Shown here: one piece after another, positions 10,873 through 21,220 of the stretch | Layout: each line of letters opens with the position of its first letter | Numbering within the stretch: the stretch's first letter is position 1 | DNA from: Salipiger bermudensis HTCC2601 | Lineage (GTDB): Bacteria; Pseudomonadota; Alphaproteobacteria; Rhodobacterales; Rhodobacteraceae | DNA length: 64,000 nucleotides | Reading direction: 5' to 3' | Assembly: GCF_000153725.1 (NCBI RefSeq) | Contig: NZ_DS022276.1 | Span: forward strand, 2,029,495-2,093,494 | Notes under the pieces: model-generated | The model's input: the letters and a program-made list of their open reading frames with translations, nothing else | What the model was told of the DNA's origin: nothing | Databases searched by the model: none | Position numbers and translations under genes: made by a program

Positions 10873-10946
10873 TGGAGGCGAGTACCGGAATCGAACCGGT
10901 GTACACGGATTTGCAATCCGCTGCGTCACCACTCCGCCAACTCGCC
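10873..10946 (-). tRNA. tRNA-Cys (anticodon GCA)
   Basis: Read on the minus strand, this is a 74-base cloverleaf: acceptor arm GGCGAGT pairs with ACTCGCC, the anticodon loop is TTGCAAA between CGGA and TCCG, giving anticodon GCA, and the T arm carries GGTTCGATTCC. The 3' CCA is encoded in the DNA, at 10873-10875. It stands alone with no neighbouring tRNA. Confidence 0.97.
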
Positions 10947-11235: not shown

Positions 11236-11559
11236 GTGAGTGATGCATATTCGGCAACGTTGAAGCTGCTGCAGGGCAGATTCATCGACGGGCTTCCCGA
11301 GATGCTGCGCCCGGTCAAGGAGACGCTCGGGCGCGAGAATGTCGAGCTCGCCGAGATCCACGATCTGCATCGCATCCTGCACGAGGCGGCGGGCAACGCC
11401 GGGATGCTCGGGTTCACCGATCTGCACCGGCTTCTCAAGGACGCGCTCAGGATGCTCGAGACCGCCGAGGCCGAGAACCGCACCCTCACGGATCCCGAAC
11501 GCAACGCCCTGATCGTGGCGCTGGCGGGCATCATGCGGGCGCGGGAGGCGGCTCTTTGA
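11236..11559 (+). CDS. Hpt (histidine phosphotransfer) domain protein
   Basis: A 107-residue all-helical protein. The Hpt signature appears as HEAAGNAGMLG with the phospho-acceptor His49; the basic residue that usually lies three after the histidine is an alanine here, which is an odd feature. The start is GTG with GAGGAG nine bases upstream. It would carry a phosphoryl group between receiver domains. It opens an eight-gene run that also encodes a sensor kinase and two receivers, so a phosphorelay is likely. Its stop overlaps the next start by four bases. Confidence 0.82.
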   Translation: MSDAYSATLKLLQGRFIDGLPEMLRPVKETLGRENVELAEIHDLHRILHEAAGNAGMLGFTDLHRLLKDALRMLETAEAENRTLTDPERNALIVALAGIMRAREAAL

Positions 11560-13478
11560 AGCACGTTCCCGGCCTGTTCGCGGCGCTTCTCGCAGCACAG
11601 ATCGGCTGTGCCTTGCCTGCCTTGGCGCAAAGCACAGCAGATGCGCCCGCCATCCAGTCCCGCGCCACCGAAACGCTGCGCCGCACGGTGCGCTTCGACG
11701 AGATCGGCTTTGATGCCGGCATCGAGTTCCGCCAGCTGTCCGGCGAGGTCACGTTCTTCCTGCCGGCGGCGCGCGCCGAGGCCATCGAGGGCGCCATGCT
11801 GCGCATCGAGCTCGAGCATGGCGAGAGCATGCAGACCGAGCGCTTCCTGTCGGTCGCACTGGCCGACCGCGTGGTGAAGGTGGCATCGCTCGAAGGCAGT
11901 TCCGGTCGCATGACCGTCGAGGTGCCGGTGCCCGACGGCGCGATCTCGGGCGGTTTCCTCAAGGTCACGCTCGGCTACTCCGGGGCACATTCCGAGCAGC
12001 TCTGCATCGATGAGCGGGCCTCGGGTGATTTCGTCTTCATCCGTCCGGGCTCCGCGCTCGAGCTCTATGTCCGCGGCGGCGAGCTGGACAGCCCGCTCGA
12101 TGTGGCGCGGCTGATGCCGCGCGACAAGCGGCTGGTGCTGGACGGCGAGGGGCCGGAGATGCTGCCCTTCGCGATGATGGCCGGTGCCGCCTATGATGCC
12201 GAGTTCGGCGCGGTGCGGGTTGGCGGAAGCGATGCCGGTGGCCGGGAATGGACCAGCGGTGCGCTGGTGGCGGGGCGCGACGGGGCGCGCGGCGGCCGCG
12301 TCGAAGTCATGGCGCTCGACGGGCGCCCGGCACTTGGGTTCGGTGGCAGCGATCCGGCGCTTGGTCTGGCCCTGCTCGAAAGCGAGTGGCAGGCGCTGGC
12401 AGCGGTCGACGGCATTGCGCCGGTCTCGCTCGATGGCGGAGAGGAGGCCTCCTCGCGGATCACCTTCGCGGAGCTGGGGGCGCCGAAGCTGCGGCAGAAC
12501 GTGGTCGGCAGCTCGACCTTCACCTTCAACTTCGCCGCCGATGCGCTGCCGTCAGGCACGCTGCCCGAGCGGCTCGAGCTTCTGGTCGCGGCGGCCAACT
12601 CCGCCTCGGGGCGTGGCGTCGCGGTCAGCGTCTTCGTAAACGACTCGATGGTCGGGTCGCGGCCGCTCGACAGCGCCGAGCCGGAATGGATGGATTTTGC
12701 CCTGCCCGCCGGGCTCATCGGGCGCGACAACCAGGTCGACATCCTCGTGCAGCGGCAGGTCGAGGGGGGCGGCTGCCGCTTCGCGCCGCAGGGATACCCG
12801 GCCGAGATCCTGCCGCAGAGCCGCTTCGTGCTGGGTGACGGACCTGCGCCGGGCGACGACTTCTTCCTCATGCGGCAGGCCTTCCGCGACGGCGTCACCG
12901 TGGTGGCAGAGCCGGGCGCGGCCGAGAGCGCATGGCCGCTGTTGCTGCCGCTTGCGGGCGCTCTGATCCCCGATCGTGCGACGGTCACCGGCGCGGCGCA
13001 GCTGTCGCAGGCCGAGGGGCCGTTCATCTATGTCGGCGCCAACCCGCCGGCGGGCAGCGATCCGGCGCTGCGTTTCGATCAGGGCGCGGTCGAGATCCTC
13101 GACGGCGATGGCGGGGTGATGTTCGCGGGATCCGGGCTCGAGGCACTGAGCTTCGTGCAGGTGGTCGAAACCGAGCAGGGGGCGGGCATCTGGATCCGCC
13201 CCGGTGATGGCCCGGCGCCGCAGCCGACCCGTTCGATACCGCTGCAGCTCGACCGGGGACAGCTGGCGATCCTCGACGAGGACGGGCTGGTGCTGTCGGT
13301 GGCGCGCAGCCGCACCGACCTGCTGCAAATCAGCTATCCCGACCAGACCGACCTGCTGCAGCTGCTGGCGAAGTACCGCCCGTGGATCGTGGGCGCGGCA
13401 TGGCTGGCGCTGACGCTGTTGCTGATCCGCTTCCTTCAGGGTGTCTACCGGAAGCGCCGGGACAGCTCCGAGGGCTGA
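11556..13478 (+). CDS. BcsB-like periplasmic subunit of a polysaccharide synthase
   Basis: A 640-residue protein with a signal peptide (ending ALA near residue 24), a large periplasmic region and one C-terminal membrane span (about 608-630) before a basic tail. That architecture and the early RRTVRFDEIGFDAGIEFRQL segment, followed by FFLPAARAEAIEGAML, resemble BcsB, the periplasmic partner of cellulose synthase. Internal segments such as FNFAADALPSGTLPERLELL and FVNDSMVGSRPLDS also fit the repeated carbohydrate-binding folds of BcsB. Start is TTG, overlapping the Hpt stop, with GGGAGG seven bases upstream. It precedes a BcsA-like glycosyltransferase. The polymer is unknown. Confidence 0.75.
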   Translation: MKHVPGLFAALLAAQIGCALPALAQSTADAPAIQSRATETLRRTVRFDEIGFDAGIEFRQLSGEVTFFLPAARAEAIEGAMLRIELEHGESMQTERFLSVALADRVVKVASLEGSSGRMTVEVPVPDGAISGGFLKVTLGYSGAHSEQLCIDERASGDFVFIRPGSALELYVRGGELDSPLDVARLMPRDKRLVLDGEGPEMLPFAMMAGAAYDAEFGAVRVGGSDAGGREWTSGALVAGRDGARGGRVEVMALDGRPALGFGGSDPALGLALLESEWQALAAVDGIAPVSLDGGEEASSRITFAELGAPKLRQNVVGSSTFTFNFAADALPSGTLPERLELLVAAANSASGRGVAVSVFVNDSMVGSRPLDSAEPEWMDFALPAGLIGRDNQVDILVQRQVEGGGCRFAPQGYPAEILPQSRFVLGDGPAPGDDFFLMRQAFRDGVTVVAEPGAAESAWPLLLPLAGALIPDRATVTGAAQLSQAEGPFIYVGANPPAGSDPALRFDQGAVEILDGDGGVMFAGSGLEALSFVQVVETEQGAGIWIRPGDGPAPQPTRSIPLQLDRGQLAILDEDGLVLSVARSRTDLLQISYPDQTDLLQLLAKYRPWIVGAAWLALTLLLIRFLQGVYRKRRDSSEG

Positions 13479-13481
13479 TCG

Positions 13482-15368
13482 GTGGCGCTCGACGCGGAAA
13501 GCGAGGCCATCGGCAACCTGCTCTACGATCGGGGCATCCTGACCGACGAGCAGCTCGACGAGGCCGAGGACCTTGCCGAGGCCTGGAACCTGGGCCTCGT
13601 CGAGGTGCTGCTGGGCAAGCGCTGGCTGAAGGCCGCCACGATCTACCGCGAGCTTGCCTATTACTACGACGTGCCGCTGCTGGACCTGTCCGAGACGCTA
13701 GCCGACAGCGCGCTTCTGCGCCGCTACGACGTCACCGAGATGACCGAGGCGCAGGTGATCCCCGTCCGCGAGGAGAATGGCCGCCTGACCGTGGCGACCG
13801 CGCGGCCCGGGCCTGTCACGCTGGTCAGGATCATCGAAATCTTCGGCAGCGAGGTCGACATCGCCGTGGCGACGCGGCTTGACATCTCGCTGGCGCTGCA
13901 GAGTGCGTTCCGCGAGGAACAGTCGCACGAGGCGGTCTACGGGCTGGCCGAGACCGACCCCGTGATGTCGGCCTCGAACGTGATCCTGCCGGCGCAAGTG
14001 GTGGTGCTTTACGGTTGCATCAGCCTGTTCCTGCTGGGGCTGGCTTTTGCGCCTGTGCCGACGCTGATCGCGCTCAACGTCGTGATGACGGTGTTCTATC
14101 TCGGCAACTTCCTGTTCAAGGCGACGCTGGTCTGGGTCGGCAGCGAGGCGCAGGAGCGCATGTCGCAGTCGATCGCCGCCGAGGCGGCGATGCTGCACGA
14201 TGACGAGTTGCCGGTCTACACCGTGCTGGTGCCGATGTTCCGCGAGCCCGAGGTGCTGCCGATCCTCACCAACGCGCTGCGCAACCTCGACTATCCGCTG
14301 GCCAAGCTCGACATCAAGATCGTGCTGGAAGAGAGCGACCACGACACCATCGAGGCGGCGCGCTCGCTCGACCTCGAGGGGGTGTTCGAGATCGTGCTGG
14401 TGCCGGCGTCGCATCCGCAGACCAAGCCCAAGGCCTGCAACTACGCGCTGCAATACGCGCGGGGCGACTTCCTCGTGATCTTCGACGCCGAGGACAAGCC
14501 CGAGCCCGACCAGCTCAAGAAGGTGATTGCCACCTTCCGGCAGTCCTCGCCCAACACCGCCTGTGTGCAGTGCCGCCTGAACTACTACAACGCGCAGGAA
14601 AACTGGCTGACGCGGATGTTCACGCTCGACTACTCGCTGTGGTTCGACCTGATGCTGCCCGGCCTGCAGCGCCTCGGGGTGCCGATCCCGCTGGGCGGCA
14701 CCTCGAACCACTTCCGCATGGACGTGCTGCGCCAGCTCAAGGCGTGGGATCCGCATAACGTGACCGAGGATGCCGACCTCGGCATCCGCCTCACGCAAAA
14801 GGGCTATCGGGTGGGGGTGATCGACTCGACCACCTTCGAGGAGGCCAACGTCTCGATCCCCAACTGGATCCGCCAGCGCTCGCGCTGGATCAAGGGCTAC
14901 ATGCAGACCTTCCTCGTGCACACGCGCCGCCCCGTGCACCTGGCGCGCACCGTCGGGCTGCCGGGGCTGATCGGCTTCGTGTTCTTCATCGGCGGCACCT
15001 TCCTGTCGGGTCTGCTGAACCCGATCTTCTGGGGCATCTTCGTGCTTTGGATGATCTTCGGCGCGCAGCTCATCGAGCCGTATTTCCCGCCCGCCATCCT
15101 CTACATGTCGCTGATCAACCTGCTCGCGGGCAACGCGCTGCTGATCTACCTGACGATGGTGGCCCCGTTCCGCCGGCGCTGGACCTATCTCGCGCCGTGG
15201 GGCGTGACGGTGGTGGGCTACTGGGTGCTGATGACCATCGCCTCCTACAAGGCGCTGAAGCAGCTGGTGTCGAACCCGTTCTACTGGGAGAAGACCCAGC
15301 ACGGCCTGTCCAAGCACACCGCCGCCGAGCTCAAGGCGGCCGGTGACGAGGGCGAGGCGGCGACGTGA
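13482..15368 (+). CDS. Processive family 2 glycosyltransferase with N-terminal MshEN-like domain
   Basis: A 628-residue inner-membrane synthase. Residues 1-145 resemble the N-terminal domain of type II secretion ATPases (MshEN/GspE-N), with two LG-spaced repeats (IGNLLYDRGILTDEQL, then LGLVEVLLGKRWL). Two membrane spans follow (about 167-215), then a GT2 domain with VLVPMFREPE (near 245), DAED (335-338), TED (428-430) and QRSRW (465-469), the signature of processive synthases such as BcsA. More C-terminal spans follow. There is no PilZ domain. MshEN domains bind cyclic di-GMP in other proteins (E. coli NfrB is a GT2 with one), so control by that messenger is plausible. GTG start with GAGGG upstream. 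Confidence 0.85.
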   Translation: MALDAESEAIGNLLYDRGILTDEQLDEAEDLAEAWNLGLVEVLLGKRWLKAATIYRELAYYYDVPLLDLSETLADSALLRRYDVTEMTEAQVIPVREENGRLTVATARPGPVTLVRIIEIFGSEVDIAVATRLDISLALQSAFREEQSHEAVYGLAETDPVMSASNVILPAQVVVLYGCISLFLLGLAFAPVPTLIALNVVMTVFYLGNFLFKATLVWVGSEAQERMSQSIAAEAAMLHDDELPVYTVLVPMFREPEVLPILTNALRNLDYPLAKLDIKIVLEESDHDTIEAARSLDLEGVFEIVLVPASHPQTKPKACNYALQYARGDFLVIFDAEDKPEPDQLKKVIATFRQSSPNTACVQCRLNYYNAQENWLTRMFTLDYSLWFDLMLPGLQRLGVPIPLGGTSNHFRMDVLRQLKAWDPHNVTEDADLGIRLTQKGYRVGVIDSTTFEEANVSIPNWIRQRSRWIKGYMQTFLVHTRRPVHLARTVGLPGLIGFVFFIGGTFLSGLLNPIFWGIFVLWMIFGAQLIEPYFPPAILYMSLINLLAGNALLIYLTMVAPFRRRWTYLAPWGVTVVGYWVLMTIASYKALKQLVSNPFYWEKTQHGLSKHTAAELKAAGDEGEAAT

Positions 15369-16786
15369 GGGATCTGGTCTGGAAGATCGCCCTCTGGCTG
15401 CTGGTCAGCGCGGCGATGCTGCTGCCTATCGCCTGGGTCGAGGGGCATGGCTTCCTGTCTTCCGCCACCATCCAGATGTGGGCCAAGGCCATCGTGCTGA
15501 CCGACGGGCCCGCGGTGTTCCGCGCCACCGACGCCTTCTTCCCGCCGTTGCCCTTCGCCATCGCACTGGTGATGCAGGTGCTGAGCGGCGGGACCGACAT
15601 CCCGCTGCCGCATGTGCTGAGCGCGGCGGTTGGCGGGCTGCTGGCGGTTGCGTGGTACTACAACCTCATCAACCGGGCGGCCTATGACCGTCTGTCGGCG
15701 GTGCTGGTGGTGCTGCTTCTGGTGCTGAACCCGGTCTTTCTGCGCTCTCTGAGCGAGGGGCCGAGCATGATGTTCCTCATCCTCGGCGCGTGGCTCTTCT
15801 TCAGGGGGCTGGTGAACATCCGCCTGTTCGGCACCGCGCCCGACATGATGAAGGTGGCGCTGGGGCTCCTGGTCGCGACGATGTCGCACGAGCTGGGCGT
15901 GCTTTTCGCGCTGGCCACGCTTCCGGCGCTGGTGCTGGCGGCGCGTCCGAGCCTGCTTCTGGTTTCGCCTTCGGGCTATCTCGTGTCGATGTTCTTTCCG
16001 GTGGTCGCCGCGGTGCTGTCGCTGTTCTTCGTCAGCGCGGTTCTGAAGACTGATTTCTTCGCGGTGCAGCTGCTGTCGCCCGACAGTGCATGGGCCGGGG
16101 CCACCTTTCTCGCGATCTTCTGTCTTCTGCCGGTGCCGCTGATGGTGATCTTCCGGCTGTTCCTCCAGCCGCGATTCTCGATGCCGCTCGGTGGCATGCT
16201 GCTGACGCTGGTCGGCATGGCTCTGCTGAACCGGGTCTACCCGGTGGAGCCCGATCCGGTCCTTGTGGCCGCCCCTGCGCTTGGCGCGATCCCGGTCGCG
16301 GCGCGCTGGTGGACGCGCACCTCGCTGCGCTCGACGCCGCTGGCCGCGCTGATGGTGCTTTCCGCGATGCTGGGCGGCTGGGCGCTGGGCACTCTGGGAG
16401 CGCCGGAGAGCCGTGCCTGGCTGCAGGCGGCGAGCGGGCGGATGGTGACCAACCCTGTGGCGCAGGCAGCACATGTCGCGGCGTTCCTGCGCGACCGCGA
16501 CGAGGTTCTCGCAGATGTCGAACGCCATCCGGATCTTGTCGCGGCGCTGGGAAATGCGAGCAATTTCATCGCGGCAGGCGATCCGGCCTATGATCGCGTG
16601 CTGTTCGGCGGCCGCCCGGCTGGAAAGTTCGTTGTCATCGGGGTGGATGAAAATGATCCAGTTGTTCGGGATCGCCTGTTGCGAGCGCTACCGAGACTGA
16701 AGAATAACAACGATTCGAGATTCGATCTCGTATATGACACGGGCAGCTGGATGGTTTACCGTGTGAACAGAGCAGGAGACACCTAA
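15365..16786 (+). CDS. Polytopic membrane protein of the polysaccharide locus
   Basis: A 473-residue protein with roughly ten hydrophobic segments covering residues 8-350 and a soluble C-terminal part of about 100 residues. Length and layout resemble GT-C type membrane glycosyltransferases, but I do not see their acidic loop motif clearly, so no reaction is assigned. It begins with GTG overlapping the synthase stop (GTGA), so it is made together with it. It may modify the polymer, supply a lipid-linked donor or help export. I do not recognise the family. Confidence 0.7.
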   Translation: MRDLVWKIALWLLVSAAMLLPIAWVEGHGFLSSATIQMWAKAIVLTDGPAVFRATDAFFPPLPFAIALVMQVLSGGTDIPLPHVLSAAVGGLLAVAWYYNLINRAAYDRLSAVLVVLLLVLNPVFLRSLSEGPSMMFLILGAWLFFRGLVNIRLFGTAPDMMKVALGLLVATMSHELGVLFALATLPALVLAARPSLLLVSPSGYLVSMFFPVVAAVLSLFFVSAVLKTDFFAVQLLSPDSAWAGATFLAIFCLLPVPLMVIFRLFLQPRFSMPLGGMLLTLVGMALLNRVYPVEPDPVLVAAPALGAIPVAARWWTRTSLRSTPLAALMVLSAMLGGWALGTLGAPESRAWLQAASGRMVTNPVAQAAHVAAFLRDRDEVLADVERHPDLVAALGNASNFIAAGDPAYDRVLFGGRPAGKFVVIGVDENDPVVRDRLLRALPRLKNNNDSRFDLVYDTGSWMVYRVNRAGDT

Positions 16787-17731
16787 GTGCGGAAGTTTAT
16801 CGCGGTCGACGACTCCGAGATCGCGCGAGAACTCATCAAGGCGACATTGGCCGATTTCGGCTATCACGACGTCTCGTCCTTCGGGAATCCGAAAGAGGCG
16901 CTCGAAAGCATGTCGGCCTCCGAAGTCGCAGCCGATCTGGTGCTGCTGGATGTGATGATGCCGGAAATGGATGGGGTCGAGCTTTGTGCGCGGATCCGGG
17001 CACTCGACAAGTGGCGCGACGTGCCAATCGTGATGCTCACCAGCCGCGAGGACAAGAGCACGCTGTCGCGGGCGTTCATGGCGGGTGCCAACGACTACCT
17101 TACCAAGCCCTTCGATCGCATCGAGTTCCAGGCGCGCCTGAGGGCGCAGCTGCGCCTCAAGGCCGAGCTCGACCGGCGTAAGTCTTCTGGTCCGCGCAGC
17201 GCGCGCGCGTCGCGCCGGGCCCGCTCGCAATTCTCGCTGCCGGGTCTGCTGGCTGATCGCGACGCGCTGCAGGATGCGCTCGCTCAGGTAAGCGACGAGC
17301 GGCTCGACGGGCTTGGTGTCTTTGCCCTCTCGGTCGATGCCACGGCGCGCAACACCGTCGATTTCAGCACCCGCGAGCGGCAGGCGATCCTTGCCGCGGT
17401 GGCCGAGGTGTTGGCGCAGGTGCGGATGCCGGCGGGCAACATGCTGGCGCATTGGGAGGGCGACACCTTTTGCGGTGCGTCTCTGGTGCACGATGACGAC
17501 GCGCTGCTTGCGGATGTGCGCGACCTCGCGATGTCGGTCAAGCGGGCGCTGGAATCGATGCCGGGCAAGCTCAAGGGCGCGTTGCCGGGCGTGAGCGTCG
17601 GGGTCACGCTTCCGGGCACCGCCGGCACCGTGTCGGAGGCGCTTGGCAAGGCGTTCGGCGCGCTCGAGGAACAGGCGCAGAAAGGCGGCAACGGGATCAA
17701 GGTCGCGGGCGCCAGCCAGCGGAACCACTAG
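16787..17731 (+). CDS. Response regulator with degenerate GGDEF domain
   Basis: A 314-residue two-domain protein. Residues 1-125 are a receiver with the acidic pair Asp8-Asp9, phospho-acceptor Asp55 (LVLLDVMMPEMDG), a TSRE switch and the lysine in LTKPFD. After a basic linker, residues 155-305 have the GGDEF fold outline, but the active-site loop reads EGDTF at 224-228 instead of GGDEF, and the end SVGVTLPG...GGNGIKV matches the family's last strand and helix. The changed Gly and Glu make cyclase activity unlikely. GTG start with AGGAG eight bases upstream. Confidence 0.85.
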   Translation: MRKFIAVDDSEIARELIKATLADFGYHDVSSFGNPKEALESMSASEVAADLVLLDVMMPEMDGVELCARIRALDKWRDVPIVMLTSREDKSTLSRAFMAGANDYLTKPFDRIEFQARLRAQLRLKAELDRRKSSGPRSARASRRARSQFSLPGLLADRDALQDALAQVSDERLDGLGVFALSVDATARNTVDFSTRERQAILAAVAEVLAQVRMPAGNMLAHWEGDTFCGASLVHDDDALLADVRDLAMSVKRALESMPGKLKGALPGVSVGVTLPGTAGTVSEALGKAFGALEEQAQKGGNGIKVAGASQRNH

Positions 17732-17744
17732 GGAGCGACAGGTC

Positions 17745-19709
17745 ATGCCCAACCGACTGGCGCGCGGTTTCCGAAGCAGCTTCGTGGCGCTTGTGCTGAC
17801 AAGCGGGGCAATGCTGCTGTTCTTCCTGCACTACGACTACCAGCGCACCATGCGCGAGGGCGAGGTACGCCTGACCCATGTCGCCGACCTCTTCAACCAG
17901 CATTTCCTCAGTGCCCTCGAGCTCGCAACCGTACGCGCCGAAGCGATGACCGAACGGCTGGGGGCCTTCAATCTCTACCGGGTCCCTGCACTCGAGGCCG
18001 AGCTGGGCGGCGGGCTGCGCGAGTTTGTCGAAAATGTCGACCAGATCGCGGCGATGGTGGTCATCGACCACGAGGGGGCGGTGCGCTGGTCCTCGATCGA
18101 GGGCGTTCTCGGCCTCTACCTCAATGACCGGGACTACTTTCAGGGCACGCTCGACGGGGCCGGAAAAGGCTATGTGATCGGTGCGCCGCTGGATTCGACG
18201 ATCACCGGGATGCGCGTGACCCCGATTGCCTGGCCGATCATCTCCGAGACGGGGGAGGTCTCCGGTGTGATGGCGTCCTCGCTCGAGGCCAGCTATTTCC
18301 GCAGATTGCTGGAAGAGACCCGCTTCGACCCCGAGATGCTGGTCGATATCCGCTCGGTCGAGGGCACGGCCGCCTTCAGCTCGGAAGGGTTCTCGAAAGT
18401 GGGCGAGAACCGGCTCGTCACGGTCTCCTCGCCGATCGAAGGCACCGGGCTGAAGACCGTGATGGCGCTGCCGCGTTCGGTCGTGATCCGCAGCTTCCTG
18501 CTGCGTGCGGTGGCCTTTACCGCCGTCTATGCGCTGCTCTCGGGGCTCGCGCTCTACGCCGCGATCCTGGCGCATCGCCGGATGCTGGCGCTGCGCGCAA
18601 GCCTCGCGCAGACCGAGCGCGAGGCCTGGAATGCGAAGCAGGCGGCGAGCCAGTTCCAGGCAATCTTCCAGAACGTCGAGGATGGCATCATCGTCTTCGA
18701 CGCGCTCGGGGAGTTCCGGACCTCGAACCTTCGCGCGCAGGAGTTGTTCGGCGTCGACAATGCCGGTGCGGCGGTCGAGCGCTTCCGCGCCAGCGCCCCG
18801 GTCGAGCTCGAGCATCTCGTCGACAGCACGTCGTTCATCTTTGTCCCCGACGCGGGCAGCCATCACGGCGTCATCGGCCGCGAGATCCGCTGCAAGGTGA
18901 GCCGGGTCGAGGCGGTCGAAGGGCACACGCTCTACTGCGTGCTGACCGATGTGTCGGCCGAAGAGCGGCTGATCCGGGCGCGCACCGCCTTTGTCGAGAC
19001 CGTGAACCACGAACTGCGCACGCCGCTGACCTCGCTCAACGGCGCGATGCGGCTGCTGAGCTCGCGCTTTGGCAACGAGTTGCCGCCGAAGGCGCGTCAG
19101 CTGCTCGATCTGGCCGAGCGCAACGCCAGCCGTCTGATGATGCTGGTCAACGACATCCTGACCCTGCAGGCGATGGATCAGGGCCGGCTCAATGTCACGC
19201 TCGCGACCGTGCGCGCCAACGACATCCCGCGCGAGGCCGTGACCAACATGCAGGGCTATGCCGATGGCTTCGGCGTCGGCCTGCTGCTGGAGTTGCAGAA
19301 CACCGGCGCCTCGGTCCAGGTCGACCCGCAACGGATGCAGCAGGTGATGGACAACCTGATCTCCAACGCGGTGAAATACTCGCCACAGGGCGAAAGCGTG
19401 GAGATCTCGAGCGCGCTGACCGAGACCGAGGTCGTGATCCGGGTGCGCGATCACGGGCCCGGCATTCCCGCAGCGGCGCAGGGCGCGATTTTTGAGCGTT
19501 TCGCCAAGCCCGCGCACGGACCGGACACCCAGGCGAGCGGAACCGGGCTTGGACTGGCGATTTCTCGCGAACTGGTCGAGCGCATGGGTGGGACTTTGTC
19601 TCTCGAAAGCATACATCTGACGGAAACCGGTGGTGACCGGGCGCACGGATCGACCTTCATCGTGCGTCTCCCGCTGGCGCAGATGGACCAACGGAGTGCC
19701 GCGGAATGA
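17745..19709 (+). CDS. Membrane-bound sensor histidine kinase
   Basis: A 654-residue kinase. A first span (about 8-28) and a second (about 250-277) frame a 220-residue periplasmic Cache-like sensor domain. A PAS-like region (about 300-410) follows, then a HisKA domain with FVETVNHELRTPLTSL and phospho-acceptor His422, and a HATPase domain with N box DNLISNAVKYSP, G1 RVRDHGPGIP and G2 GTGLGLAIS. All catalytic boxes look intact. It lacks its own receiver, so the neighbouring Hpt and receiver proteins are natural partners. Its stop overlaps the following receiver gene by four bases. The ligand is unknown. Confidence 0.92.
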   Translation: MPNRLARGFRSSFVALVLTSGAMLLFFLHYDYQRTMREGEVRLTHVADLFNQHFLSALELATVRAEAMTERLGAFNLYRVPALEAELGGGLREFVENVDQIAAMVVIDHEGAVRWSSIEGVLGLYLNDRDYFQGTLDGAGKGYVIGAPLDSTITGMRVTPIAWPIISETGEVSGVMASSLEASYFRRLLEETRFDPEMLVDIRSVEGTAAFSSEGFSKVGENRLVTVSSPIEGTGLKTVMALPRSVVIRSFLLRAVAFTAVYALLSGLALYAAILAHRRMLALRASLAQTEREAWNAKQAASQFQAIFQNVEDGIIVFDALGEFRTSNLRAQELFGVDNAGAAVERFRASAPVELEHLVDSTSFIFVPDAGSHHGVIGREIRCKVSRVEAVEGHTLYCVLTDVSAEERLIRARTAFVETVNHELRTPLTSLNGAMRLLSSRFGNELPPKARQLLDLAERNASRLMMLVNDILTLQAMDQGRLNVTLATVRANDIPREAVTNMQGYADGFGVGLLLELQNTGASVQVDPQRMQQVMDNLISNAVKYSPQGESVEISSALTETEVVIRVRDHGPGIPAAAQGAIFERFAKPAHGPDTQASGTGLGLAISRELVERMGGTLSLESIHLTETGGDRAHGSTFIVRLPLAQMDQRSAAE

Positions 19710-20074
19710 AAGTTCTATTCGTCGACAACGAGACCGACATCGTCACGCTGGTCGAGCTCGCGCTCGACGGCGAGGACGATATCGAGCTGACCGCAGTGAC
19801 CTCCGGCGAGGCCGCCATGGGCGAGATCGCTTCCGGCGGCTACGACATGTTCGTCTTCGACCTGATGATGCCGCCGCCCGACGGGCGCCAGCTGTTGCGG
19901 GCGGTGCGCAGCGATCCCGCCAACGCCGGCAAGCCGGTGCTGATGTGCACGGCGAAATCCGATGCGGTGGCCAATGACGACCTGCGCGATGCCGGCGCCA
20001 CCGATGTCCTGCCCAAGCCATTCGATCCGCTGTCGCTGGCAGACGTCCTGCGCGAGATCCACGCGGATGGCTGA
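19706..20074 (+). CDS. Single-domain response regulator (CheY-like)
   Basis: A 122-residue stand-alone receiver. It has Asp7, phospho-acceptor Asp52 (MFVFDLMMPPPDG), a CTAKS switch segment and the lysine in LPKPFD. There is no output domain, so it either shuttles phosphoryl groups to the operon's Hpt protein or binds a target, such as the synthase. Its start overlaps the kinase stop and its end overlaps the next gene by eight bases. Confidence 0.92.
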   Translation: MKVLFVDNETDIVTLVELALDGEDDIELTAVTSGEAAMGEIASGGYDMFVFDLMMPPPDGRQLLRAVRSDPANAGKPVLMCTAKSDAVANDDLRDAGATDVLPKPFDPLSLADVLREIHADG

Positions 20075-20744
20075 GGCGCGGCGCGGCGTAGTGCCGGGAG
20101 CGCTAGCGGCGCTGCTGATCTCGGCGGTGCAGGCCGAGGCGGCTGCCTGGCCGCGGGCGGAGGGGCAATCCTTCCTGTCCTATTCCTACCAGTTCCAGAT
20201 CAACGAGACGACGGACCGCAACTACTCGTCGCTGTACTACGAATACGGAGTGACCGAACGGCTGACTTTCGGCATCGACGCCGGGCGCAGCGATGGATCG
20301 GGCGACCTCACGGGGCTCTTCTTCCTCCGCAGGCCGGTGCTGTCGACCGATGCCGGCACCTGGATCTCGGCCGAGCTGGCGGTTGGTGCCATCGAGATCG
20401 AGGACGAGATCTATGGCGTGGTGCGCCCCGGTCTGTCCTGGGGGCGCGGGTTCCAGTCCGGGCTGGGCAATGGCTGGGCCGGGGTCGAATCGTCCTATGC
20501 TTTCCGGGGCGATGGCTCCGAGGAGGGCAAGATCGACGCCACGATCGGGCTCAACCATGCCTCTGGCTCGCTGTCGCTGGTGCAGCTCCAGTATGCCGCC
20601 CCCACCGGCGGCGAGGACAGCGTCTCGATCGCGCCGTCGCATGTGATCAGCCTGACCCGCGGAGTCTTCCTCGAGCTTGGGGGCGCCTACAAGTTGACGA
20701 ATGACGCAACCTCGCTGAAAATCGGGCTCTGGAGCGAGTTCTGA
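20067..20744 (+). CDS. Predicted outer-membrane beta-barrel protein of the polysaccharide locus
   Basis: A 225-residue protein with an N-terminal signal peptide (about 26 residues, ending AEAAA). The rest alternates short amphipathic strands with turns, is rich in Gly, Ser and aromatic residues, and ends with phenylalanine (LWSEF), as outer-membrane barrels do. I do not recognise a named family. As the last gene of a synthase operon it could be the exit pore or an anchor for the polymer, which is inference. The ATG lies inside the end of the receiver gene; there is no separate ribosome site. Confidence 0.7.
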   Translation: MAEARRGVVPGALAALLISAVQAEAAAWPRAEGQSFLSYSYQFQINETTDRNYSSLYYEYGVTERLTFGIDAGRSDGSGDLTGLFFLRRPVLSTDAGTWISAELAVGAIEIEDEIYGVVRPGLSWGRGFQSGLGNGWAGVESSYAFRGDGSEEGKIDATIGLNHASGSLSLVQLQYAAPTGGEDSVSIAPSHVISLTRGVFLELGGAYKLTNDATSLKIGLWSEF

Positions 20745-20860
20745 GGCGGCTCCCGGCGCCGAGACCTGAAGCCCTTGCATTTGCCGCCATGTGTCGGAAC
20801 CTTTGACCGGGCCGCCTCGTTGACTTGTCAAAGGACACATCGATCAAGGGAGCCAGGATC

Positions 20861-21220
20861 ATGGCGAATACCACGGCAAACACCCCGACCAGCAGCACAG
20901 CCTCGACCAGCACGAGCAGCAAGGACCGCGATCTTGACGCGCTGAGCGATCAGATCGCGACCCTGCGTGGCGATCTGTCGGCCCTGACCGAGATGGTCGG
21001 CGATATCGGCAGCCGTCGTGGCCGCGAAGCCAAGGCGAAGGCCAAGGCCAAGGCCGACGACGTGCGCGGGCAGGGCGAAGAGATGCTGCGCGACGCCGGT
21101 CGCCGCGTGGCGGATTTCGAAGATCAGGCAATCGGCCAGATCCGCGCAACGCCGCTGCAGGCGGTCGGCATCGCGGCTGCCGCCGGCTTCCTGCTGGGCT
21201 ACCTCAACTCGCGGAGGTAA
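20861..21220 (+). CDS. DUF883/ElaB-YqjD-like membrane-anchored protein
   Basis: A 119-residue protein with a Ser/Thr-rich start, a charged helical middle with an AKAKAKAKADD run, and one C-terminal membrane span ending GYLNSRR. This is the layout of ElaB/YqjD proteins, which in E. coli sit in the inner membrane and bind ribosomes in stationary phase. I prefer the ATG preceded by AAGGGAG; a TTG 36 bases earlier would add 12 residues. It pairs with the holin-like gene downstream, as yqjD pairs with yqjE. Confidence 0.8.
   Translation: MANTTANTPTSSTASTSTSSKDRDLDALSDQIATLRGDLSALTEMVGDIGSRRGREAKAKAKAKADDVRGQGEEMLRDAGRRVADFEDQAIGQIRATPLQAVGIAAAAGFLLGYLNSRR

Follow-up and report, generated by a model that had tools for sequence, protein, structure and literature searches.

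A degenerate MshEN domain and a set of phosphorelay genes in a xag-like/sfz-type exopolysaccharide operon of Salipiger bermudensis

Which signal opens a polysaccharide synthase whose neighbouring genes encode a phosphorelay? The question is raised by an operon of Salipiger bermudensis HTCC2601 (positions 11236-20744 of a 64,000-nt stretch, here called the window; host genome 5.48 Mb), in which a processive glycosyltransferase of the GT2 family lies among genes for a sensor kinase, a phosphotransfer (Hpt) protein and two receivers. A sequence-only reading of this DNA had proposed that the kinase controls polymer synthesis after transcription, by contact of a receiver with the synthase. We find that the synthase carries an MshEN domain that has lost half of the key positions of its cyclic di-GMP (c-di-GMP) motif, and that one receiver, which keeps its phosphorylatable Asp, is fused to a GGDEF-like domain that has lost its catalytic motif. 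As likely true as not, in our judgement, a c-di-GMP-gated synthase has here been rewired to a dedicated phosphorelay, with the receiver-pseudo-GGDEF protein contacting the worn MshEN domain. The operon consists of eight open reading frames (ORFs) on the plus strand that overlap by 4, 4, 4 and 8 bases or are separated by 3, 0 and 13, so the tight same-strand packing noticed earlier holds, with overlaps of 4-8 bases and gaps of up to 13:

11236-11559, plus strand: Hpt phosphotransfer protein (GTG start, 107 amino acids; putative phospho-His in HEAAGNAGMLG)
11556-13478, plus strand: BcsB-like periplasmic subunit (TTG start, 640 amino acids; C-terminal membrane anchor read from the sequence)
13482-15368, plus strand: MshEN-GT2 processive glycosyltransferase (GTG start, 628 amino acids; FDAED, TEDAD and QRSRW motifs)
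13509-13658, plus strand: degenerate MshEN c-di-GMP motif region (GT2 residues 10-59)
15365-16786, plus strand: polytopic membrane protein of predicted GT-C fold in the Sfz3/XagC position (GTG start)
16787-17731, plus strand: receiver with inactive GGDEF-fold domain (GTG start, 314 amino acids)
17745-19709, plus strand: membrane sensor histidine kinase with dCache-like, PAS, HisKA and HATPase_c regions (ATG start)
19706-20074, plus strand: single-domain receiver (ATG start, 122 amino acids)
20067-20744, plus strand: small barrel-like protein, probably outer-membrane (ATG start, 225 amino acids; barrel read by eye)

The MshEN domain contains two 24-residue motifs and serves as a receptor for c-di-GMP (PMC5013675; this and the other papers cited here are quoted from extracts). 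An MshEN-type domain occupies residues 10-148 of the window's GT2 (PF05157 on residues 62-148, 50.1 bits), and the two-part motif is not intact: 7 of the 14 key positions are retained, and the missing ones include both Arg, both Gln and half of the four conserved Gly. The c-di-GMP motif model NF053729 (cut-off 38) gave 21.6 bits on residues 10-59 when run on the whole protein and 25.9 bits when run on the N-terminal part alone. We ran the same model on 20 selected GT2 sequences, the Hpt-less ones having been pre-scored as canonical. All 11 of these lay above the cut-off (43.7-63.8 bits), whereas 8 of 9 Hpt-bearing GT2s, the window's included, lay at 19.7-35.7 bits and the ninth (Amorphus L123) at 38.7. 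On the wider set of 72 sequences scored for both features, taking 10 or more of the 14 positions as canonical (a cut chosen after a gap between 8 and 10 had been seen), all 30 Hpt-bearing rows were degenerate, and the 42 Hpt-less rows divided into 22 degenerate and 20 canonical. Altogether, 21 rows of the tree described below retain 10-14 positions, among them Gamma-, Desulfo-, Acido- and Ferriphaselus-type loci. The degenerate N-terminal domain is probably still used, because its conservation relative to the glycosyltransferase domain is about that of canonical ones (identity ratio 0.67 versus 0.65).

The phosphotransfer residues show the opposite pattern of conservation. The Hpt His is present in 33/33 aligned rows (the window and three further rows included). 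In the receiver-GGDEF protein, Asp55 is conserved in 54/54 rows (including the window and L040-L042), and the GG(D/E)EF catalytic motif is absent from all 54, so that none qualifies as a diguanylate cyclase by this motif. RxxD is likewise lost in 44/54 rows, the window's clade among them; six of the 10 rows that keep it are Azospirillum-type loci with near-canonical MshEN. We therefore rejected an active or c-di-GMP-sensing role for the window's protein, which lacks both motifs. Its receiver part is clear (PF00072, 99.7 bits). The GGDEF-like part of the window protein has no Pfam match of its own; 32 of 45 aligned family members match PF00990 at E 0.1 or better, and a structure model (predicted local distance difference test (pLDDT) 90.0, predicted template modelling score (pTM) 0.57) matches full-length WspR (E 6e-22), DgcR and PleD. 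The tail is thus a GGDEF fold, in the same domain order as in WspR, PleD and DgcR, from which the family differs by loss of the catalytic site throughout and, in the window's clade, by loss of RxxD.

The other gene identities proposed earlier stood up unequally. Pfam supports the BcsB-like subunit (PF03170, 39.8 bits, cut-off 21), the GT2 (PF13632, PF13641 and PF05157), the single receiver (PF00072, 66.4 bits) and the HisKA and HATPase_c regions of the kinase, whose dCache_1 match stays under its cut-off (35 versus 45 bits). What we take to be the H-box and ATP-binding motifs of the kinase were picked out by eye, and the phospho-site of the single receiver was also read by eye. The Hpt match (19 bits, cut-off 24.6) only suggests that assignment. 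The GT2 motifs FDAED, TEDAD and QRSRW are almost invariant across 84 aligned rows, and its closest solved structures by sequence are BcsA (residues 238-552) and PilB (residues 7-160). No Pfam family matched the membrane protein or the barrel-like protein. The latter, whose barrel rests on inspection, aligned with a family of about 270 amino acids from 50 other loci (profile-profile probability 98.5, E 2e-15), and by this comparison both are the same family. For the membrane protein, an AlphaFold2 model (pLDDT 92.1, pTM 0.93) gave Foldseek matches to DPY19, AftA, ArnT and the oligosaccharyltransferase OST (E 2e-5 to 9e-4); TM-scores normalised by the query of 0.43-0.59 (12 matches, E up to 0.001) place it at the level of fold class only. 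A GT-C glycosyltransferase fold is a high-confidence prediction for this protein, the counterpart of Sfz3 here.

The polymer-making core does belong to a named type, contrary to the earlier statement that no such system was known. Its BcsB-like subunit, MshEN-GT2, GT-C-fold protein and barrel-like protein are those of the xag-like/sfz exopolysaccharide clusters, known from Xanthomonas xagABCD (Tao et al. 2010, as cited in PMC4643136 and PMC8250860) and from stalk genes of Zeta- and Betaproteobacteria (PMC4643136, PMC8250860, PMC3609779), and the predicted product of the operon is an exopolysaccharide. The shared order is BcsB-like, MshEN-GT2 (described as an EpsE-like N-domain in Sfz2, in a paper that does not use the name MshEN) and a protein of about 500 amino acids, which as Sfz3 is given no function there (PMC8250860). 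The bcsB-xagB-xagC-xagD genes of Ferriphaselus sp. R-1 are published candidates for stalk formation (PMC4643136; sfb/sfz in PMC8250860). We take locus L122 of this strain, one of the loci compared below, to be this cluster; it holds the same families in the same order, with a canonical MshEN (63.8 bits). In Xanthomonas oryzae pv. oryzicola, deletion of xagA and xagB reduced the raised biofilm of an rpfG mutant and not that of the wild type (PMC3609779). The published clusters also contain a hydrolase gene (Sfz4) and, in Zetaproteobacteria, CotH, whereas the window's operon has no such hydrolase and its genome has no match to the GH113 glycoside hydrolase family. In the extracts of these papers, the genes described for the clusters do not include Hpt, receiver-GGDEF, kinase or receiver genes, and in the largely open-access literature, likewise seen in extracts, we found no account of such a cluster accompanied by Hpt or receiver-GGDEF genes. 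It is therefore the regulatory variant, which we have not found in print, rather than the core, that appears unusual. Two gammaproteobacterial loci (L117 and L120) show GH113, barrel-like, CotH and ATP/ADP-antiporter-like genes in line, like the published sfz neighbourhood; CotH was confirmed by Pfam in L117, and the antiporter name comes from reading the sequence.

Other known systems resemble the operon in part. NfrB/NfrA of E. coli also combines GT2 with MshEN, an exopolysaccharide, an outer-membrane partner and a GGDEF protein that touches the synthase (PMC8669469). It differs in that its MshEN is C-terminal and must bind c-di-GMP, its DgcJ is an active cyclase, its outer-membrane protein contains TPRs and the periplasmic component is YbcH instead of BcsB (PMC8669469). 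The BcsAB cellulose synthase shares the GT2 and the BcsB-type subunit and is among the nearest solved structures. A cellulose synthase was rejected, as the NCBIfam model scored 53.9 bits against a cut-off of 699.1 and no PilZ match was found, the GT2 having MshEN instead. In the HmrABCX relay of Caulobacter, too, surface attachment is controlled by a hybrid kinase together with two Hpt proteins; as reported in the extract, its cluster has no synthase and the relay acts on c-di-GMP synthesis (PMC11481889).

The sequence-only reading tied the signalling genes to the synthase and named their absence from homologous clusters as what would refute it. We compared 80 named loci, the best GT2 matches listed from public genomes rather than a census. 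The closest named relatives among the matches listed are S. bermudensis strains (GT2 96-97%). The membrane-protein homologue adjoins the GT2 in 80/80 loci and BcsB lies upstream of it in 73/80 (5 of the 7 misses are contig ends); the barrel-like gene occurs in 58/80, two sequence groups being joined here by the profile match. For 66 loci with more than 2.6 kb of upstream and 3.3 kb of downstream flank, we asked whether Hpt precedes BcsB and whether receiver-GGDEF follows the membrane protein: 27 had both, 17 had receiver-GGDEF alone and 22 had neither. The tie thus holds for many alphaproteobacterial clusters, in which kinase, receiver, Hpt and receiver-GGDEF co-occur, and fails for the 22.

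Closer to the window the set is constant. All 12 named loci of its GT2 subclade carry Hpt, BcsB, GT2, membrane protein, receiver-GGDEF, kinase and single receiver, and 8 of them also the barrel-like gene (L066 ends shortly after the receiver). The seven-gene order from Hpt to single receiver is repeated at 27-78% identity in L041 and L042, which belong to two other genera, and a divergent eight-gene copy (L168, GT2 75%) lies on another contig of the fourth BcsB-bearing genome of the same genus. The gene order that the earlier reading asked to be sought in relatives was thus found, and its recurrence in L041, L042, the 12 subclade loci and the L168 copy places it beyond chance. A wider reading, in which every MshEN-GT2 of the Rhodobacteraceae belongs to this system, was rejected. 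Of the 149 family genomes sampled, 135 have a match at 1e-40, but only 4 have a copy of at least 73% identity, and all four of these carry the operon; nine fetched regions around lower-identity copies held no second operon gene at E 1e-3. The window's own genome encodes a second MshEN-GT2 (L039), a paralogue lacking the other operon genes; most of the family matches are of its lower identity.

A complete phosphorelay had been claimed from the gene content. Four proteins with their phospho-sites in place (kinase, receiver, Hpt and receiver-GGDEF) make up a His-Asp-His-Asp set, and in L080, L091 and L097 (loci naming Hyphomicrobiales or Xanthobacteraceae) one protein joins a receiver to an Hpt-like domain that resembles the operon's Hpt by descent (24.2, 31.2 and 32.3 bits, cut-off 24.6), as would be expected of a four-step relay. 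The fused genes adjoin kinases (a hybrid one in L091), on the convergent strand and about 6-7 kb past the GT2 start, and are possibly a compact form of the same relay. In other alphaproteobacteria the position of the kinase-receiver pair relative to the synthase varies: it precedes Hpt on the same strand in L123, is convergent downstream in L077, L098 and L103, lies upstream on the opposite strand in L090, and does not occur within the operon in L067 (Paracoccaceae) or L076 (Solirhodobacter), both outside the window's subclade. Kinase-regulator pairs near L092 and L093 were excluded, because DNA-binding domains of the LuxR and OmpR types are present in the regulators. By strict criteria in loci with full flanks, the pair accompanied 11 of 21 Hpt-bearing and 0 of 35 Hpt-less loci, a tally that overlooked L062 because of its ORF start.

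Together, these data lead us to a model in which the GT2 polymerase and its BcsB-like periplasmic partner would make and export a secreted polysaccharide, the GT-C-fold enzyme modifying or starting the chain and the small barrel-like protein sitting in the outer membrane. In the ancestor, c-di-GMP bound to MshEN probably gated the synthase, and this site would have decayed in the present lineage. Phosphate would now pass from the periplasmic sensor kinase to the single receiver, to Hpt and on to the receiver-pseudo-GGDEF protein, an order suggested by the receiver-Hpt fusions and by standard four-step relays. Once phosphorylated, this terminal receiver would touch MshEN through its pseudo-GGDEF domain, and the synthase would open or close independently of c-di-GMP. 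We infer the contact from gene position, from the surviving residues and from the GGDEF protein that touches NfrB (PMC8669469). With Asp55 kept and the catalytic site lost, it is most natural to see the control as exerted after transcription, through protein contact; the earlier reading had arrived at this kind of control and had overlooked MshEN, the likely point of contact.

To place these changes in order, we used a tree of the glycosyltransferase domain built by a quick method with the MshEN columns excluded. Canonical relay-free clusters fall outside; a clade of 50 contains every Hpt-bearing row, and all of its scored rows but one are degenerate. An in-operon kinase-receiver pair marks the window's subclade. 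Paraburkholderia L114, inside the Hpt clade, lacks both Hpt and receiver-GGDEF and its MshEN is canonical, which favours a link between the relay and decay of the domain. A stronger version of the model, which we hold tentatively and believe somewhat less than the rewiring as such, is that the allosteric input of the synthase was switched from diffusible c-di-GMP to a private phosphorelay, a dead cyclase serving as a phosphorylation-driven clamp on MshEN, with decay of the catalytic GGDEF, RxxD and MshEN sites and retention of the phosphotransfer residues as the outcome, and that the canonical, intermediate and rewired states are all extant. The intermediate would be the Azospirillum-type loci, with the adaptor present and MshEN and RxxD kept. 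Since these loci have both the adaptor and a near-canonical MshEN, the adaptor would have preceded the decay.

Several results weigh against rewiring. That same Azospirillum/Niveispirillum-type clade joins a receiver-pseudo-GGDEF protein to an MshEN with 11-12 of the 14 positions, and the first Arg and the last Gln are frequently missing from canonical rows as well. At least 10 of the 22 Hpt-less degenerate rows also have no receiver-GGDEF where one would be expected (they are an Acetobacteraceae-type group, L067 and two Croceicoccus rows), so that MshEN decay occurs without the relay; in the relay-free Acetobacteraceae-type group the identity ratio is 0.68, and constraint on the degenerate domain is thus not specific to the relay. 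Three independent pairs on well-supported branches had the MshEN state going with Hpt in 0.7, against it in 0 and unchanged in 2.3, too few independent changes to give the link significance. Without the window's subclade, the strict kinase-receiver linkage falls to 1/10 versus 0/35 (p 0.22); counting the fusions gives 4/10 versus 0/35 (p 0.0014), a figure that is descriptive because the criterion was widened post hoc, three of the four loci are close kin and the counts were entered by hand. The two domains of the receiver-GGDEF model are not confidently placed relative to each other (pTM 0.57), and one Hpt-bearing GT2 (L112, 35.7 bits) comes close to the NF053729 cut-off. The Acetobacteraceae-type loci (L124, L125, L127, L129, L131-L133, L135, L137 and L138), in which we found neither Hpt nor receiver-GGDEF, have a membrane protein of only 367-397 amino acids; they perhaps took a different route away from c-di-GMP.

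The near-threshold scores of L112 and L123 (38.7 bits) also speak for the rival that fares best, in which the synthase remains under c-di-GMP, bound by a divergent MshEN or elsewhere, and the relay adds a second input or acts on the supply of the messenger. The window's genome contains five GGDEF loci, of which three are strong, and in NfrB more than one site change is seemingly needed to abolish binding (PMC8669469). The window's MshEN, however, has lost its Arg and Gln positions and half of its conserved Gly, and the partner beside it has neither RxxD nor a catalytic site, which makes this rival unlikely, if the most credible of the three.

Hpt proteins can serve several receivers. The relay genes might accordingly be co-expressed with the synthase and act elsewhere, on other receivers, gene expression or pole localisation, with the pseudo-GGDEF as a scaffold away from the synthase. 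The further family member L172 fits such independence, keeping Hpt, receiver-GGDEF and the barrel-like gene with no kinase-receiver pair between them (a partial kinase match, 34%, lies about 1 kb beyond the barrel), as do the 17 of 66 loci with receiver-GGDEF and no detected Hpt. On the other side, Hpt never occurred without receiver-GGDEF (0/66), receiver-GGDEF stands 3' of the GT-C gene in 51 of the 80 loci, and the Pfam search recognised no DNA-binding domain on either operon receiver. We regard action elsewhere as a shade less probable again. GGDEF domains act as dimers. The pseudo-GGDEF might therefore form a pair with an active cyclase from another locus and direct the c-di-GMP of that enzyme locally, as candidate cyclase-type genes in the genome and the direct contact of DgcJ with NfrB in E. 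coli (PMC8669469) would allow. We think this improbable, for a local source would make little sense if the MshEN site is degenerate.

If the rewiring of the synthase to the phosphorelay is correct, a second-messenger-controlled enzyme can be brought under two-component control with a dead cyclase reused as adaptor, and intermediate states of the change are available among living bacteria. The xag-like/sfz polymer family, a candidate for the material of iron-stalk fibres and a component of Xanthomonas biofilms, gains a broad alphaproteobacterial branch, a predicted GT-C fold for its membrane protein and, for some members, a hint at the polymer. A GH113-type gene occurs in 32 of the 80 loci (by BLAST clustering, four members checked with Pfam). 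Beside the cluster, L093, L094, L107 and L114 (4/80) have a mannose-1-phosphate guanylyltransferase-like gene and L067 (1/80) a phosphomannose-isomerase-type cupin, both named from reading the sequence. There is thus a hint that the polymer of relatives bearing GH113 or mannose-nucleotide genes contains mannose. For the window mannose would be a guess, since GH113 was found neither in its genome nor near any of the 12 subclade loci.

The surroundings of the operon suggest how it arrived. A tRNA-Cys gene lies upstream (10873-10946) and a neighbouring gene downstream (20825-21220). In ten genomes of the genus Salipiger that have no BcsB match, we compared the region behind this downstream gene: tRNA-Cys was about 100-200 bases from it in 4 and about 2 kb away in 1, and was not found in the stretch fetched from the other 5, one of which a contig end cut short. 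The S. bermudensis lineage has the operon between tRNA-Cys and this downstream gene. A 16-base exact repeat of tRNA-Cys was found nowhere else in the window. The operon is probably an insertion beside the tRNA gene. Within the genus, 4 of 20 genomes have BcsB, as do at least 6 of 394 genomes of the family sample, in which up to three candidates were scored per genome. Given the insertion at the tRNA side, this sparse occurrence and the divergent copy in L168, the eight genes seem to move as one functional set.

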